A DNA stretch of 32,138 nucleotides from an uncultured Mucispirillum sp. (GTDB taxonomy: Bacteria > Chrysiogenota > Deferribacteres > Deferribacterales > Mucispirillaceae). Shown one piece after another: positions 12,214 to 30,035 of the stretch (position 1 is its first letter; every line of letters begins with the position of its first letter). The notes beneath the pieces were generated by a model. That model worked only from the letters and a program-made list of their open reading frames with translations. It ran no database searches and was not told the DNA's origin. The position numbers and the translations under genes were made by a program. Where the stretch lies: assembly GCA_944325215.1 (NCBI GenBank), contig CALUZC010000025.1, positions 1 through 32,138 on the forward strand, given 5' to 3'.

Positions 12214-12447
12214 ATGGATACAATAAGACAAACAATTAAAGACATTTTTACAGCAAATAATATAGATATATCTAATATTGATGAAAATAAATCATTAATA
12301 GAATCTGGTATTATAGATTCTATGACATATGTTAATATTTTATTAGAAATCGAAGACTCTCTTAATATTGAAATAGATTTTGAAAATATTGATTTAGCCT
12401 CTATTGTTTCAATAAAAGGGCTCTGTGATTATATTAACAGCTTATAA
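12214..12447 (+). CDS. Acyl/peptidyl carrier protein (second of two)
   Basis: A 77-residue carrier with GIIDSMTYVNILLEIE; Ser36 is the phosphopantetheine site. The LIESGIIDSM context is closer to D-alanyl or aminoacyl carrier proteins than to fatty-acid AcpP. This suits the adenylating ligase encoded at 13238 as its loading enzyme (compare Cj1307/Cj1308 of C. jejuni). It begins immediately after the preceding stop and its last 6 bp overlap the end of the convergent methyltransferase gene. Confidence 0.85.
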   Translation: MDTIRQTIKDIFTANNIDISNIDENKSLIESGIIDSMTYVNILLEIEDSLNIEIDFENIDLASIVSIKGLCDYINSL

Positions 12448-13131
12448 TTTTTCTATAAACATATGATAAACACTATTAGTAATTTCTTCATCAATAAACT
12501 TACAATCGTCTGAAATAACATAAGATACTCGGTCATTTCTTCTTAAAAATACCACTTTGAATCTATCATTTAGTATTTTTATCACGCCATACAACCCAAT
12601 ATTATTTACATATATATTATTACCTTTAAAAGAAGCTGATGCATGACCATCATCACTAAAAAGCTTAATTTTTTTAGTGCTGATTTCTGATTGTGGAGTT
12701 AGTAATATTACCCCCCCCCCAACAGTTACTCTATGAACTTCATCAATAGCTTTTTGATACATATCTTCATTGACACATACAAGTGAACCATGGTCTATAA
12801 CCATATGAAAAAAATTATCCTTAAATGGAAGATTGTCAACCGATGCAACTGACATTTCACCATGTAAACCACTTACATTAAATGACCTTATACAATAATC
12901 AATAGCTGTTTGAGATATATCTATACCATATACATTACATCCCTGCTCTGCTAAATATTTTATATTTGCTCCACCACCACAGCCCAATTCTAATGCATTG
13001 ATTTCTGAAGGTAAAACACCAGGGTATTTTTTATAATAAAAATTTAATAATTCTATAATTATAGAAAATGGATATTTCATCATAGCTCTATCATTAAGGC
13101 TACTATATAGTTTTTCCCAATGATTTTCCAT
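12442..13131 (-). CDS. Class I SAM methyltransferase with in-frame G10 tract (phase-variable candidate)
   Basis: A 229-residue Rossmann-fold methyltransferase of the Methyltransf_11 type: motif I ALELGCGGGANIKYL (about 46-60), the acidic end of strand beta-2 in YGIDIS, and VHRVTVGGGVILL (about 132-144) near motif III. The glycines of this last segment are encoded by ten consecutive G on the coding strand, in frame at n=10. Gain or loss of one G would frameshift and truncate the protein. It is convergent with the second carrier protein and divergent from the adenylating ligase. In C. jejuni a methyltransferase (Cj1300) sits among the homologous genes. A sugar- or acyl-O-methyl role is inferred. 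Confidence 0.85.
   Translation of the reverse strand: MENHWEKLYSSLNDRAMMKYPFSIIIELLNFYYKKYPGVLPSEINALELGCGGGANIKYLAEQGCNVYGIDISQTAIDYCIRSFNVSGLHGEMSVASVDNLPFKDNFFHMVIDHGSLVCVNEDMYQKAIDEVHRVTVGGGVILLTPQSEISTKKIKLFSDDGHASASFKGNNIYVNNIGLYGVIKILNDRFKVVFLRRNDRVSYVISDDCKFIDEEITNSVYHMFIEKL
12711..12720. repeat. C10/G10 homopolymer inside the methyltransferase gene
   Basis: Ten C on the plus strand, ten G on the coding strand. In DNA of about 30% GC such a run is very unlikely by chance and is the classic slipped-strand mispairing tract of phase-variable surface-modification genes. The present length keeps the gene in frame (ON). Confidence 0.9.
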
Positions 13132-22796: not shown

Positions 22797-24200
22797 CTAT
22801 TTCAATTTCATTAGATAAATAGTTCTTTTAGTATTTTCTATGGCAACCTTTTCTAATATAGTAAAATGTCTTTCAAAAGATTTTTCAAAGTTTTCAATAG
22901 TATAATATGAATAATCTCCAATTTTTTCATCTAATATTTTCATTGTTTGAGAATCATCTTTTGGAACCCATTCAATTATTAAATATTTTGTAAAAGAAGC
23001 AAAAAACTCAGCAAATTTATTAAAAGGGACATTATTTGTAATAGTTATATGATGAATTAATGCAAGTGCTAATGTTATATCACTATCTGAAAGCCTAATA
23101 ATAAACGAATCACGTTCCTTATTTGCCCACCCTATACTTGGTGTAGGATTTGTTAAATCCGTAATAACTGGATAAATATTTTTATATTCATTAGTTTTTA
23201 ATATTAAATAATTTTCATCTACAGCGTGATAATCCATATCTGATGATATAATTATACTTTTACTATATTTACTACACAATAAACGTGAAAAATGTCCATT
23301 ATTGGCACCTAAGTCTATAATTTTATTACGGTTACCACATTTATCAACAAGTTCTAGTAATATTTTTTCTTTCTGCGTAAAAGACTCTTCATTATAATTT
23401 GTAAAACTGTAATATCCATTCCAGTTACTCCGACCTTTTTTCGTATTATATTCTATTCCATTAATTGTATTGAGCAAATTTTCTATTAAATTAATCAAAT
23501 TTGTTTTCTTTAAAGAAAAATTTTTATTATTATGATTAGAATTTTTTTCAGCACTTTTATGGATTTTTGCATTTAAATATAAATGCATAAATATACCTAA
23601 TTTAAATTTTGATTTCAAGGGTAATAATCTGGCAGCATAATCCAGTGGTATTCCATCAATATAATTTATTGAAGCTTGATATATTCTATAATCAGTGTAT
23701 GCTATTAATGCAAGAGGAGCTAAAAAATGCCTACAAAACTGACTATATGCCTGCCATACACTACCTTCATTATATTTTTCAAATGAAAGAGTATCTATAA
23801 ATATTGGTTTACCATTATAAAACTGAATATTAAATGCTGTGGCATCTTTCAATATCATATTGTATTTTAAAGCTTCAAGAAGCACTTTTAAAGTTAGTAA
23901 TGCAGCATCTTTCAATTGATGAAAACTCCATTCATAAGGGTATGAAATATATGGAAGTTGAGTGGGTTTAATAATCTTATAAATATCTCTATTATCTATA
24001 TTAAATTGGTCTATATCACAAATTTCCTCATGATATACCAATACTCCATCTATCACTAATTTATCATATAATCCAGATGAAATTAAAAAATCATAATTTT
24101 CTTTATACGCCTTATTGATACATCTGTATACAATATTGTCATGCTTAAATACGTATCCACCAGCATATATATCACGAAAAGATGAATTTAGAACTTGCAT
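22797..24200 (-). CDS. NoeA-like SAM-dependent methyltransferase
   Basis: 467 residues. The first 240 or so form a kinase-like or substrate-recognition region (LKDATAFNIQFYNGKPIFIDTLSFE resembles a degraded kinase catalytic loop plus the DFG area). A Rossmann methyltransferase follows: motif I KIIDLGANNGHFSRLL at about 293-308, then ISSDMD and LALALIHHITI. This architecture is that of the NoeA family of nodulation-associated methyltransferases, whose substrates are poorly known. AGGAGG is 11 bp before the ATG. It starts 23 bp after the SUFU-domain gene, so both depend on the promoter with the C8 tract. Confidence 0.72.
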   Translation of the reverse strand: MQVLNSSFRDIYAGGYVFKHDNIVYRCINKAYKENYDFLISSGLYDKLVIDGVLVYHEEICDIDQFNIDNRDIYKIIKPTQLPYISYPYEWSFHQLKDAALLTLKVLLEALKYNMILKDATAFNIQFYNGKPIFIDTLSFEKYNEGSVWQAYSQFCRHFLAPLALIAYTDYRIYQASINYIDGIPLDYAARLLPLKSKFKLGIFMHLYLNAKIHKSAEKNSNHNNKNFSLKKTNLINLIENLLNTINGIEYNTKKGRSNWNGYYSFTNYNEESFTQKEKILLELVDKCGNRNKIIDLGANNGHFSRLLCSKYSKSIIISSDMDYHAVDENYLILKTNEYKNIYPVITDLTNPTPSIGWANKERDSFIIRLSDSDITLALALIHHITITNNVPFNKFAEFFASFTKYLIIEWVPKDDSQTMKILDEKIGDYSYYTIENFEKSFERHFTILEKVAIENTKRTIYLMKLK

Positions 24201-24223: not shown

Positions 24224-25411
24224 TTAATCTTCCTGCCACTCTTTATAATTTTCATCAATTATTTTTGCAATATCTTTATAATACTGTTCTGTCAGTTCCA
24301 TAAAACAGTATTCCATATCACACATATCATCTGTATCTATATTATTATTTTCAAAATAATCTAGTGCATAAGCAGCAATATCATCATAATACTGACCTAC
24401 TATACCTTCATCTGGGTTATTTAAGCAGTATGATTCTATAAAATCTATAATATCATCATTTAATATTTCATACCTTAATGTTCCAATAAGCTTATCTATA
24501 ATAAAATTTCTTAAATCAATACTTTCTGGCGATGTTTTCACCGTATTTATCTCATCACTATACTTTGATATAAACTCATCAGACATCATATCATGCTCTA
24601 TTAACCACCTTAAAAGTATAGCCATATGGTTAAATGCATTTAATTCTCCAGACTGCTGTACAATGTTTTCTTTATAAAGGGGCAGTAAATGAAGCATACC
24701 ATCATCAAAAATATTTTCATAATCATATAAATATCTATCTTGATATATAATAAAGTTGTGGAAAATAAGTTTATGAAAAATAAGATTTCTGTTAAGGTTT
24801 GCAGCACGTTCTATTTCATCAGATGTAATAGGCATAATCTGTAAAAAGCCTACTTTTTGCCCATCGGGAAGAGTACATATTTGCCCTTCTTCTGTTGTAT
24901 ATGCTGGAAACATTAATATACCGCCAGAATCATGAGTGCTTTCTGAAAACGGTGTTTCATCGTCCATAATATTGCCCATTACAAAATAACTTTCATTATT
25001 AACAGGTGCTTGAGCTAAATTTTTTAATATTTGTATAGGGTAATTCCACTGTGCATTAATATTACCTAAAAGTGGTGTAACTGAACCATCAATAATCAAC
25101 CCTGTAGTTGAACCAGATGATTGTTTAAAAGCACCATCTATATTCCAATTGGAACTTAGATAAATCAAAAGCTCTATTCTATCCAAATTACCGTCTTTAA
25201 AATCATCAGGTATATCCATTTGATATGCTCCCATACCTGAAGTTACAACAGTATAAAAATCTCTTTCTTTTGTTGGCTCTATAATATAAAGCTTTAAATC
25301 AAGGCTATCACACTCTTTAACCGTAACTGTTCTTGAAATATTACCATAATGCTTGATAATATGGTCTTGAATAGTTTGTGCCTCATAGGGAGTATAAGAA
25401 TAGGCTGCCAT
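24224..25411 (-). CDS. Suppressor-of-fused (SUFU) domain protein
   Basis: 395 residues. Residues about 50-205 carry the SUFU signatures: TVVTSGMGAYQMDIP, RIELLIYLSSNW, YPIQILKNLAQAPVNN, FSESTHDSGGILMFP and VGFLQIMPITSDEIE. The rest is an acidic helical extension (about 230-395). Bacterial SUFU proteins are reported among immunity proteins of polymorphic toxin systems, but many are of unknown role. No signal peptide, so cytosolic. The ribosome site is GAGGTG. I see no adjacent toxin gene; the partner is the methyltransferase downstream. Transcription is predicted to be phase variable. Confidence 0.75.
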   Translation of the reverse strand: MAAYSYTPYEAQTIQDHIIKHYGNISRTVTVKECDSLDLKLYIIEPTKERDFYTVVTSGMGAYQMDIPDDFKDGNLDRIELLIYLSSNWNIDGAFKQSSGSTTGLIIDGSVTPLLGNINAQWNYPIQILKNLAQAPVNNESYFVMGNIMDDETPFSESTHDSGGILMFPAYTTEEGQICTLPDGQKVGFLQIMPITSDEIERAANLNRNLIFHKLIFHNFIIYQDRYLYDYENIFDDGMLHLLPLYKENIVQQSGELNAFNHMAILLRWLIEHDMMSDEFISKYSDEINTVKTSPESIDLRNFIIDKLIGTLRYEILNDDIIDFIESYCLNNPDEGIVGQYYDDIAAYALDYFENNNIDTDDMCDMEYCFMELTEQYYKDIAKIIDENYKEWQED

Positions 25412-25445
25412 AAAATCACCTCATAATATTTATAAATTTACCACC

Positions 25446-25474
25446 AAATAATAACATTGGGGGGGGAATGTCAA
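25446..25474 (-). promoter_or_regulatory. Promoter with a homopolymer in the -35/-10 spacer
   Basis: On the minus strand a perfect TTGACA (25474-25469) is followed by a spacer containing eight C, then TATTAT after 15 bp (a 5/6 -10 match) or TTATTT after 17 bp. The SUFU gene start is about 37 nt downstream. Length changes in the C-run would alter spacing: at C8 the better -10 is 2 bp too close, at C10 it would be at the optimum 17. Confidence 0.7.
25459..25466. repeat. G8/C8 homopolymer in the SUFU promoter
   Basis: Eight G on the plus strand, eight C on the transcribed sense of the SUFU promoter, lying wholly between the -35 and -10 boxes. It is the second longest G/C run seen in the window after the G10 in the methyltransferase. 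Confidence 0.85.
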
Positions 25475-25522: not shown

Positions 25523-26650
25523 TTATTCTATCTCATCATTTTTTAAAGCTTCAAGCTTATTCATAGATGATTCAAGTTTATTATTTCTTGTAGTTTTTAG
25601 GCTGTCATATTCTGAAGAAACTTTGCCAATTAATTCCCCAAGCTTTGAAAAGCCATCAGAATATTTTATCCACTCTTTTCTAAAAAGCCCCATAGCCTCC
25701 ATTAATTCCTTAGCTTTTTTCTCCATTACAAAATTTTCAGCAGCCTGCCTAATAACTGCTAAAACTGATATGGTTGTGACAGGCGAACAAATCATAATAC
25801 CCTTTTTGGCTGCCTCATCTAAAAGCGATGGCTCTGTATCAAATATAAAAGAATATATAGCTTCATTAGGTATAAACATAATAGCACAGTTTACAGTGCC
25901 ATTTTCTGTATCTATATATTCCCGTGTAGCAATAGCTTTTATATGGTTTTTTACATCTTTTATAAATTCTTTTTTATAATATGGCTTTTCCTGCTCACCT
26001 GATTCAATATATCTTCTATAATTATCATAAGGAAATTTAACGTCCATATTTAAAATTGTGCCATTGGGAAGTAAAAATGTAAAATCTGGTCTGTTACCAC
26101 TTGTTTCACTTTTCTTTTGGCGAACATAATTTATGCCTTCCTTTAGCCCTGCATAATGAAGCACATCATCTGCCATACGTTCTGCCCACTGGCCTCTACC
26201 CTGTTTAGATGATAATGTTTGCCTTAAACCATTTGTAACATTATATAATTCGTTTGTACGCACCCTGCTGTCATCAATTATACTTTTTAATTCACCCATT
26301 TGCATATTACGGGAAGTTTCCATATTATTTATTAGCCCTGTTAATTTTAAAAGCTCATTATTAAGTGTTTCTATGCGTTTTTCTATTACTTCCTTTTGTC
26401 CACTAAGTTCTTTAGAAGATATTTCCCGCTCACTTTGAAGCCTGCCTGAAAGCATATCTGTTGTTTTACTTAATGTATCAAGAGAAATTTCTGCAAAGTT
26501 GCTTTTTAAAAGATTAGTAGCTTCGTCCATTACTGCATTAAATTTATCATCGCTTTTTTTTGCCATTATCCTGTATATTAATGCAACAATAACAGCTCCA
26601 AAAATAACTCCAGATATGAAAATAAGAATAATATATAAATGTTCTGCCAT
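25523..26650 (-). CDS. rmuC: RmuC-family DNA recombination protein
   Basis: 375 residues: an N-terminal membrane helix (about 5-27, YIILIFISGVIFGAVIVALIY), a coiled-coil segment (about 35-140), then the RmuC nuclease-like domain with GRGQWAERMADDVLHYAG, RPDFTFLLPNG, LNMDVKFP and NCAIMFIPNEAIYSF. RmuC limits inversions and rearrangements at short inverted repeats in E. coli. It starts 4 bp after the smc stop on the same strand, so the two form an operon. Confidence 0.92.
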   Translation of the reverse strand: MAEHLYIILIFISGVIFGAVIVALIYRIMAKKSDDKFNAVMDEATNLLKSNFAEISLDTLSKTTDMLSGRLQSEREISSKELSGQKEVIEKRIETLNNELLKLTGLINNMETSRNMQMGELKSIIDDSRVRTNELYNVTNGLRQTLSSKQGRGQWAERMADDVLHYAGLKEGINYVRQKKSETSGNRPDFTFLLPNGTILNMDVKFPYDNYRRYIESGEQEKPYYKKEFIKDVKNHIKAIATREYIDTENGTVNCAIMFIPNEAIYSFIFDTEPSLLDEAAKKGIMICSPVTTISVLAVIRQAAENFVMEKKAKELMEAMGLFRKEWIKYSDGFSKLGELIGKVSSEYDSLKTTRNNKLESSMNKLEALKNDEIE

Positions 26651-26654
26651 AGGA

Positions 26655-29600
26655 CTACCTGCCTGCTCGTGCTACCTGCTCCAGTGTTACCGATAATATA
26701 GTAGATACACCATATTCCTGCATAGCAACACCATAAATTGAATCTGCAATACTCATCGTATTATGGTTATGAGTAATAAGTATAAACTGAGTTTTATCTG
26801 ATAATGCTTTAACCATACCCACATACCTTTCCACATTGGCATCATCAAGTGGAGCATCTACTTCATCTAAAAAGCAAAATGGTGTTGGCTTTTGTAAAAA
26901 TAATGCAAATAATAATGTCATAGCAGTAAGAGCTTTTTCTCCACCTGATAAAAGCCCCATATGCTGCAATTTCTTACCCGGTGGCTGAATATATATCTCT
27001 ACACCACTTGTAAGCATATTATCAGGGTCCGTAAGTTTTAACTCCGCCTCACCATTACCAAATAATATATGGAAAACTTCCACAAACTTACCTTTTACAG
27101 AATTAAATGTTTCTTCAAACATTCTAACGGTAGCTTCATCTGTTTCATTAATAAATGAATTTATATCGTCAATAGAGCCTTCTAAATCACTTCTTTGTTC
27201 TGTTAAAAATTTATAACGTTCTTCTGCCTCTTTATAATCATTCATAGCATTTAAGTTAATAGGCCCAAGCTCATCAAGTTTGTTTTCTATTCTATTCATT
27301 TCCTCTTTAATACGTCTTGGTTCCTTATCTTTTTCTGCATGGCTTAAATAATCAGCAGATATATCTATGCCGTATTTATCCATATATGTTACGGCACTTG
27401 CTTCTAAAACAGATGTAACACCTGCTAAATCAAGCTCATATTTTCTAACTTCATCATCTAATTCTTTAATACTACTGTTTATATTTTCTGCATTTTTACG
27501 AAGTTCATCAATTCTATTGCGCATTTCCTCAAGTTTTACAGCAGCATTTTTTACTTCCTCTTCACAAGTTAATGTATCTTTTGCTATTTCATTTAATTTT
27601 TCTTTTAATGCTGCTAACTCATTATTCCAATTTAATGCATCTACCGTTAAAAGCTGTTCTAACCTTTGTTCTAATGTATTTAAATTTTTTGTAATACTTT
27701 CTTTACTATGTCGTTTGCTTTCTAAATCCTTCTTTAAAAACTGGGCTTTTTCGTCCTTTTGTGCAAACTGGATTTTTACTTCCATTTGTTCAGATTTTTT
27801 ATCATCAAGGTTATCTTTTATAGTTTCAAGTTTTTCTTCAAGAATACTGCGTTTATCTTCTAATTCTACCTGCTGACTGCTGATTATTTCTATATCTTCT
27901 TTTATTCTGCTTATTTTTTCTGCATTATCATTTATATTTTTACTGGCTAACTCTATTTCTTTATCTATTATATCTTTTCGTTTGATAATACGCTCTTCTT
28001 CCTGTAATATACTTTTAAATTCTGTTTCTTTTTTTAAGTAATTATCACGAGATGTATTATATAAGTTTTGCATTTCTTCTTGATGATGTTTACTTTTTTC
28101 AAGATTATTTTGGATATAGCCCATTATTTTTTCTATTTCAAATACTTCAAGCCCTGCTTTATCCTTACTTGTTTCTGCCTGTAATATATTATCTTTTAAC
28201 GATACTATTTGATAACCCTTATCTTCCTGACCTGCTTTTTTATAAATATTTTTACTTAAAAAAATATTCTCAAAAACTTCGTCTACTTGAGTATTTAAAA
28301 GATAATACCTTATTTTCTCTACATCAGACCTAAAAGCAAACCTAACAGACGATTTTAATGTGGATACTTTTTCAAATATCTCATCTTTATTCTCATCACT
28401 GAAAATAAAAACATCGCCAATATCTATTAAAAGCTTATGCTCCAAATCAGCAATAAAATCAATTAATAAACCCTGCATATAAGGTTTTAAAATGAGAGTT
28501 TCTTCATTAAATGATGAGGCAGCCTCAAGCTGTTCCTGAAAAAATATAATACTATTTTCTAAACTTTTTATTTCTGCCTGCAAGCTTATTAATTTATCCT
28601 GCTCTTTATTATACTGCTCAAGATATTCTGCAACTTTATCTTTAGCATTATTTAGATTTTCCTCATCTTGAACCATGCTAAACTGCAGCCCGTCAAGTTC
28701 CTGTTGAAATACATTTTTTCTCTCTTGTAAATCTTTGATAGATTTCTCTAAATTAGCCTGCTCATATTCCAACCGTTTCATATCCTGCAAAGCATGTTCA
28801 TGGGCAGATTCTATTCTTATAAGCTCGTTACGTTTATTTGTTATTATACCAGTTGATTCAATATATTGCTCATCAGTTTCATGAAATTCTTCTTCTACTG
28901 ATTCTTTTTGGTTAATCATCTCATCAATAGCATCATTTAATTCATCTAACTTTTCTTCTACAAATTCTAATGCATCTCTTGCAGTATCAAGTTCGTCAGT
29001 AAGAGATTCTATTTCATTTGATAATATTTCAAGCTTTTCTTTTTCCTGCTGTATATTTTGTGCTAAATCTGCCTTTATATCATCACTTGATAATATTTTT
29101 GTTTCTAAAGCCTTAATATCACCTTCTATATTAGCTTTTTCCGTAGCTTTAAATATACGCTTTTCCTGTAGTTTTTCATATTCTTCCTGACTTGCTTTAT
29201 ATTCGTTGTTAGATAAATTTTCCACACGGACAATATCAGCATACTCTGTAAGCATACTTTCTAATCTTTTCTTTTGCTCTATAAGTTTTGATTTTATTTT
29301 AGATGCATCTTCTGCTTTTAAATAGTAGGAAGTGCATAAGTATGATTGCTCCAGCCTTTTAAAATTAGTCTGCAGTTCTTCATATATAATAAGTTGTTCC
29401 ACTTGAGATGATAAAGACTGCATTTGGGTAACTATTTCTTCTATAATATCTGTAACACGGTCAAGATTATCCCTTGTTTGCTGCAGCCTTCTTTCTGCTT
29501 CCCTTTTTTTATCTTTAAATTTAGTAACACCTGCTGTTTCTTCTAAGAAAAACCGTAACTCTTCAGGGCTTGCATTAATTATTTTATCTACCTTGCCCTG

Positions 29601-30035
29601 CTCAATAATAGATATACTTCTTGCACCAAGCCCCGTATCCATAAATATGTCTTTAATATCTTTAAGACGGCATTTTCTATTATTAATATAATATTCACGT
29701 TCACCAGTTTTATAGAATTTACGGGTAATGGTAATTTCAGAAAACGTGCCATATTTTGCAGCAACTGCCTCATCAATATCGGATAAAGTAAGCCCAACTT
29801 CAGCAAAACCTGCAGGCTTACGTTTTTGAGAGCCGTTAAAGACAATATCTTCCATATCAGCCCCACGCAGTTCCTTTGCGTTCTGCTCTCCAAATACCCA
29901 CCTGACAGCGTCCATAATATTACTTTTACCACTGCCATTAGGGCCAACAATAGCCGTTATTCCATCTGGAAAATCTACCGTTGTCTTATCTACAAATGAT
30001 TTAAATCCGTGAAGGTATAATTTATTAAATTTCAT
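26655..30035 (-). CDS. smc: Chromosome segregation protein SMC
   Basis: 1126 residues. The head begins MKFNKLYLHGFKSF with Walker A GPNGSGKSNI (about 32-41) and ends with the ABC signature LLSGGEKAL and Walker B FCFLDEVDAPLD. Two long coiled coils flank a hinge around residues 490-610. The hinge is recognisable by position (LIDFIADL...IDIGDVFIF...) but lacks the usual glycine-rich and GRxTFLPL features and seems diverged. Length is a little below the usual 1170-1190. There is no Shine-Dalgarno upstream; with the predicted promoter the mRNA may be almost leaderless. rmuC follows. Confidence 0.95.
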   Translation of the reverse strand: MKFNKLYLHGFKSFVDKTTVDFPDGITAIVGPNGSGKSNIMDAVRWVFGEQNAKELRGADMEDIVFNGSQKRKPAGFAEVGLTLSDIDEAVAAKYGTFSEITITRKFYKTGEREYYINNRKCRLKDIKDIFMDTGLGARSISIIEQGKVDKIINASPEELRFFLEETAGVTKFKDKKREAERRLQQTRDNLDRVTDIIEEIVTQMQSLSSQVEQLIIYEELQTNFKRLEQSYLCTSYYLKAEDASKIKSKLIEQKKRLESMLTEYADIVRVENLSNNEYKASQEEYEKLQEKRIFKATEKANIEGDIKALETKILSSDDIKADLAQNIQQEKEKLEILSNEIESLTDELDTARDALEFVEEKLDELNDAIDEMINQKESVEEEFHETDEQYIESTGIITNKRNELIRIESAHEHALQDMKRLEYEQANLEKSIKDLQERKNVFQQELDGLQFSMVQDEENLNNAKDKVAEYLEQYNKEQDKLISLQAEIKSLENSIIFFQEQLEAASSFNEETLILKPYMQGLLIDFIADLEHKLLIDIGDVFIFSDENKDEIFEKVSTLKSSVRFAFRSDVEKIRYYLLNTQVDEVFENIFLSKNIYKKAGQEDKGYQIVSLKDNILQAETSKDKAGLEVFEIEKIMGYIQNNLEKSKHHQEEMQNLYNTSRDNYLKKETEFKSILQEEERIIKRKDIIDKEIELASKNINDNAEKISRIKEDIEIISSQQVELEDKRSILEEKLETIKDNLDDKKSEQMEVKIQFAQKDEKAQFLKKDLESKRHSKESITKNLNTLEQRLEQLLTVDALNWNNELAALKEKLNEIAKDTLTCEEEVKNAAVKLEEMRNRIDELRKNAENINSSIKELDDEVRKYELDLAGVTSVLEASAVTYMDKYGIDISADYLSHAEKDKEPRRIKEEMNRIENKLDELGPINLNAMNDYKEAEERYKFLTEQRSDLEGSIDDINSFINETDEATVRMFEETFNSVKGKFVEVFHILFGNGEAELKLTDPDNMLTSGVEIYIQPPGKKLQHMGLLSGGEKALTAMTLLFALFLQKPTPFCFLDEVDAPLDDANVERYVGMVKALSDKTQFILITHNHNTMSIADSIYGVAMQEYGVSTILSVTLEQVARAGR

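Follow-up and report, generated by a model that had tools for sequence, protein, structure and literature searches.

Does a cytosine run lodged between the −35 and −10 elements of a promoter allow the operon behind it to switch? This question arose from a 32,138-nucleotide stretch of DNA (the window), contig C25 of a 2.55-Mb Mucispirillum genome, in which the original prediction had placed a phase-variable promoter of the slippage type ahead of genes for a SUFU-domain protein and a methyltransferase.

A poly-C spacer ahead of the SUFU operon

Direct reading of the window gave ATAATAACATTGGGGGGGGAATGTCAA on the plus strand at 25448-25474, and the minus strand of the same interval reads TTGACA-TT-CCCCCCCC-AATGT-TATTAT. 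The predicted TTGACA and TATTAT, separated by a 15-bp spacer (25454-25468, counted on the minus strand) containing C8, are exact and correctly placed, and the arithmetic by which C10 would yield a 17-bp spacer is likewise correct. The features of the promoter and its surroundings are as follows; those of the promoter and the Shine-Dalgarno sequence were obtained by direct reading.

25469-25474, minus strand: −35 hexamer TTGACA, the invariant core of the genus-wide family described below
25459-25466, minus strand: C8 tract within the promoter spacer; the mode of the family is C9
25454-25456, minus strand: TGT preceding the −10, giving the extended −10 TGTTATTAT
25448-25453, minus strand: −10 hexamer TATTAT
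25416-25422, minus strand: Shine-Dalgarno sequence GAGGTGA, 5′ of the SUFU ATG
24224-25411, minus strand: 395-aa protein with SUFU and DUF7832 domains, encoded by the first gene past the promoter (PF05076, 2.3e-22; PF25191, 9.8e-18)
22797-24200, minus strand: putative SAM methyltransferase of 467 aa, separated by 23 nt from the SUFU gene (motif DLGANNGHFSR; weak hits)
25523-26650, minus strand: rmuC, upstream of SUFU and co-directional (PF02646, 2e-57)
26655-30035, minus strand: smc, co-directional with rmuC

The SUFU ATG at 25411 lies approximately 37 nt past the −10. Shuffling predicted 0.03 occurrences per window of TTGACANNC8 with up to two mismatches, and the motif was found once, as an exact match, in DNA of 30% GC. 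The element would represent a sigma-70-type extended −10 promoter with a slippage-prone poly-C spacer, in which the gain or loss of cytosines during replication would shift the distance between the −35 and −10 and thereby change the transcription rate of the downstream gene.

The SUFU assignment was borne out by the PF05076 match (E = 2.3e-22), whereas the "NoeA-like" label given to the second gene found no support: neither Pfam nor NCBIfam yielded a NoeA-like family match, and the methyltransferase call relies on the motif DLGANNGHFSR together with weak, generic methyltransferase hits below threshold. An AlphaFold model of the methyltransferase, built from three sequences, had a mean pLDDT of 36 and was too poor for use. 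Bacterial SUFU proteins have been linked to immunity against polymorphic toxins (PMC3482391); this role is possible for bacterial SUFU generally, yet no adjoining toxin gene was recognised, and we did not adopt it here.

Promoter and coding tracts at the SUFU-methyltransferase operon

Six species share the rmuC-SUFU gene order, but among them only that of the window has the poly-C promoter. We therefore rejected the idea of a conserved SUFU-specific switch, given that five other species carry SUFU without this promoter. A methyltransferase gene follows SUFU in three of the six (G000, G001 and G007). In G001 and G007, which have no poly-C promoter, the methyltransferase gene itself carries an in-frame coding G9 at codon 202/205, and a change of one or two bases there would shorten the product from approximately 470 aa to 205-226 aa; the methyltransferase allele of the window, conversely, is free of homopolymeric tracts. 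Tracts thus occur at all three SUFU loci with a methyltransferase (one in the promoter, two as coding G9) and at none of the three loci without one. In this small sample of three versus three, the restriction of tracts to loci with the methyltransferase suggests that the methyltransferase is probably the selected target. Given the coding G9 of this gene in sister species, selection at the SUFU operon probably acts on variable methyltransferase activity.

Separately, the methyltransferase alleles form a mosaic (window 22797-24200, L120:65-1474 and L121:58-1479), as though recombination had swapped segments between sister species: the G001 allele resembles that of the window at both ends and, in its middle part with the tract, that of G007.

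The promoter may be real and its switching nevertheless irrelevant to this operon, if most of its transcription were read-through that began at smc-rmuC, with the poly-C promoter a recent, near-neutral acquisition. The genes smc, rmuC, SUFU and the methyltransferase are indeed co-directional, a terminator scan between rmuC and the SUFU gene found none, and five other species maintain rmuC-SUFU without a poly-C promoter. As no terminator was found after rmuC, read-through may provide a basal level of expression that would blunt any switch. However, the coding G9 in the methyltransferase of the same operon in sister species argues against irrelevance, and at 30% GC a C8 run combined with a perfect −35 and an extended −10 would hardly be expected to survive by chance. 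We accordingly regard read-through as a doubtful account of the locus, and turn to the broader reading of the element as a slippage-type promoter.

A genus-wide family of poly-C promoters and its targets

In the genome of the window, TTGACATTC6 occurred at 10 exact sites, versus 0 for the reversed pattern. When the pattern was generalised to TTGAYA, up to three bases, at least C7 and then a −10, with the reversed pattern as the control, 3 to 14 matches each were recovered from nine of ten Mucispirillum genomes, whereas the control produced a single match; variants with four bases (TTGACAAAAT-C7 to C10-GTTATAAT and similar) contributed a few extra sites. In total, 67 distinct sites in the genus carry, as the SUFU promoter does, a homopolymeric tract of at least seven bases between recognisable −35 and −10 elements. 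Their consensus is TTGACATT-C9-RTGATATAATG, and a TGn lies 5′ of the −10 in 49 of them. The sites are spread over many contigs of the genomes rather than clustered. A scan of approximately 85,000 species' genomes assigned 24 of 28 loci to Mucispirillum; the remaining four (L102, L103, L110 and L116) are isolated single promoters, of which three have a C7 tract and the other a C8. In a related genus of the same family, a lipoprotein-like gene is preceded by a C9 site (L004). The SUFU promoter is one among many family members and not an isolated case.

Lipoprotein genes predominate downstream of these promoters. They account for 47 of 63 downstream genes, compared with 19 of 353 background genes (Fisher p ~8e-33, computed over orthologs that are not independent); lipoproteins were called by one crude rule, and a 400-kb portion of the same genome, with its 353 genes, served as background. 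Within the genome of the window alone, 7 of 10 poly-C targets are lipoproteins (p = 4e-7). Under the same rule, no lipoprotein signal was recognised in the SUFU protein, and the SUFU gene belongs to the few non-exported targets of the family. Two of the targets that were tested are RCC1-repeat proteins. RCC1-repeat (beta-propeller) lipoproteins behind poly-C promoters (L068:1236-2963 and L082:3034-4686) are unusual among surface proteins. Elsewhere in the window's genome, a tandem pair of lipoprotein genes (L072, C6:78313-79143) has identical translations over the part compared, with one poly-C promoter each, and at L070:2991-3026 (C4:65850-65885) a C9 and a G9 separated by 18 bases form an inverted, facing pair of homopolymers.

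Tract length, spacer length and the case for switching

All tract lengths reported here are consensus values from assemblies, which hide minor tract lengths, and the assembly of the window's genome is fragmentary. Over the 67 sites, the tract was C9 in 48, C10 in 9, C8 in 6, C7 in 3 and C11 in 1, and the spacer measured 15 bp in 40, 16 bp in 10, 14 bp in 9 and 17 bp in 3. Variation in length at a given locus was observed between species at orthologous lipoprotein promoters; the SUFU orthologs lack the promoter tract. The clearest comparison is a lipoprotein promoter with C9 in G003 and C7 in G004, where the upstream 60 nt are identical, the downstream sequence shows 97% identity and there is no other gap. 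Further orthologous promoters with near-identical flanks differ as C10 versus C9 and C9 versus C8. Among 16 related pairs, 12 are of equal tract length and 4 differ, 2 of the latter involving one site at which the difference is possibly a substitution (T-A-C9 versus T-C10). This preponderance of equal pairs, together with the narrow range of lengths (C9 in 48 of 67), could also be compatible with a fixed spacer.

Coding poly-G tracts in the same genomes occur, among others, in genes for glycosyltransferases, a radical SAM protein, an N6/N4 DNA methylase and an EptA-like phosphoethanolamine transferase, and several appear to be out of frame as assembled. One lies in the window, in the methyltransferase gene of a flagellin-linked island:

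12711-12720, minus strand: in-frame coding G10 (CDS 12442-13131, minus strand)

A shift of one base in this tract would reduce the product from 229 aa to 140 or 152 aa; the orthologous gene has G11 out of frame in G001 and G9 in frame in G004. In the window's genome, the N6/N4 DNA methylase gene (L081:2980-4323) contains a G11 (C19:21515-21525) near its end and encodes 447 aa as assembled or 627 aa with a one-base gain; it is a possible phasevarion. Another gene with a G9 (L084:2244-3035, C27) encodes 263 aa as assembled versus 667 aa with a one-base gain and was apparently caught in an OFF state, and the gene for the EptA-like phosphoethanolamine transferase (L088:295-1872, C54) has a G9 within its first codons. 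Both mutS and mutL are present in the genome, which leaves loss of mismatch repair unsupported as a cause and is a point against the slippage reading.

The tract might instead be a fixed element of a lipoprotein regulon under common control, serving as a regulator site or as a DNA-shape spacer, in which case C9 with a 15-bp spacer reflects the regulator's need and nothing switches. The dominance of C9 (48/67) and of the 15-bp spacer (40/67) fits such an arrangement, as does the retention of C9 by most related pairs; moreover, the non-tract part of the spacer sums to 6 in 48 of 67 sites through differing layouts (2+4, 3+3 and 4+2). However, where the non-tract length is 7, the tract is still mostly C9 (6 of 11, with C8 in 2 and C10 in 2), indicating that spacer length is not strictly held. 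Orthologous promoters also differ by one or two cytosines, and coding genes show the same tract lengths. A preferred length is also known for the G tracts of Campylobacter jejuni, in which biases towards insertion and towards deletion oppose each other and yield a set point near 9-10 (PMC8224891). In Mucispirillum, a set point near 9 would be expected as well if short tracts gain and long ones lose bases as in C. jejuni, although the distribution here looks narrower. On balance, a fixed element appears improbable. Chance occurrence of a poly-C run between the two boxes is refuted by the genus-wide family, by the expectation of 0.03 per window, by the 10 exact sites versus 0 reversed and by the strong target bias, notwithstanding single scattered C7 cases in unrelated bacteria, for example upstream of a tRNA and of a csp-like gene.

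The preferred reading, to which we assign a probability of roughly three in four, is that the poly-C promoters constitute a slippage-type, phase-variable family across Mucispirillum, to which the SUFU promoter belongs. The original prediction of a phase-variable promoter gained comparative support from the genus-wide family, the differences in tract length between orthologs and the coding poly-G tracts in and out of frame, but its focus on SUFU did not hold for the family, the usual targets of which are lipoproteins.

To gauge the output expected at each length, promoters of the form TTGACA-TATAAT free of C tracts were counted in five genomes with orthologs removed; spacers of 14, 15, 16, 17 and 18 bp occurred 5, 11, 18, 13 and 6 times, respectively. 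Spacers of 16-17 bp are thus the commonest in ordinary promoters of the genus, those of 15 bp being used as well, and a change of one or two cytosines would therefore span the useful range. The optimum of 17 bp named in the original prediction lies within the preferred range, and C9 at SUFU (16 bp) should already be strong. The present C8 (15 bp) would probably be intermediate rather than off, C9 and C10 (17 bp) would be strong, and C7 and shorter tracts would be weak. For the family, the modal C9 would fall one base short of the preferred spacing, which one or two further cytosines would reach. The sequences show the architecture, the family with its conservation and target bias, the change of tract length between species and the exchange of mechanism at the SUFU operon; from them we infer within-clone switching, the expression at each tract length and a benefit.

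The arrangement resembles that of porA, opc and fetA in Neisseria, in which an unstable homopolymer between the −35 and −10 of a sigma-70-type promoter is considered to affect how the sigma factor binds (PMC2791445) and, for FetA, a 17-bp spacer confers consistently high expression (PMC4577077). Unlike its Neisseria counterparts, the Mucispirillum element is repeated (at least 10 sites in the genome of the window), combines an extended −10 that is conserved with a set point of C9, occurs in the phylum Deferribacterota, and is so far only predicted to drive length-dependent expression. The vlp genes of Mycoplasma hyorhinis form one gene cluster. Each of these surface lipoprotein genes has a promoter homopolymer, and their ON/OFF state tracks tract length (PMC10502178). 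Similarly, several Mucispirillum lipoprotein genes, at least seven in the genome of the window, have a homopolymer promoter of their own, whereas the tracts are poly-C rather than poly-A, the genes are dispersed, and the targets comprise several unrelated lipoprotein families plus a few non-lipoproteins. The coding G tracts of the window's genome are, in turn, akin to the contingency loci of C. jejuni, where tracts of approximately 9-11 occur in genes for glycans and DNA modification, with a set point near 9-10 (PMC8224891, PMC4965091). In contrast to the mainly translational control in C. jejuni, translational and transcriptional tracts coexist in Mucispirillum and replace each other at one operon.

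Our literature search for phase variation in Mucispirillum found no report, and the genome paper makes no mention of it. The mechanism is of a known kind; what appears to be new is its use for lipoproteins throughout a genome in Deferribacterota, together with its exchange for a coding tract at one operon. We lean towards a genus-wide phase-variable lipoproteome regulon, accompanied by operons that exchange a poly-C promoter for a coding poly-G tract between sister species; it would be the first contingency-locus system described in Deferribacterota, and the SUFU-methyltransferase operon would be a recruit from outside the lipoproteins.

Mucispirillum belongs to the core microbiota of the mouse gut and is associated with inflammation (PMC5285517). 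If ten or more promoters, mostly before lipoproteins, and some ten or more coding tracts are switchable, surface heterogeneity would be central to its life in the host, and near-identical cells would look different to host or phage. The repeated, near-identical promoters would offer a natural series for relating spacer length to promoter strength, and the exchange between promoter and coding tracts at the SUFU-methyltransferase operon would provide a clear-cut example in which to ask what it is about phase variation that selection preserves.
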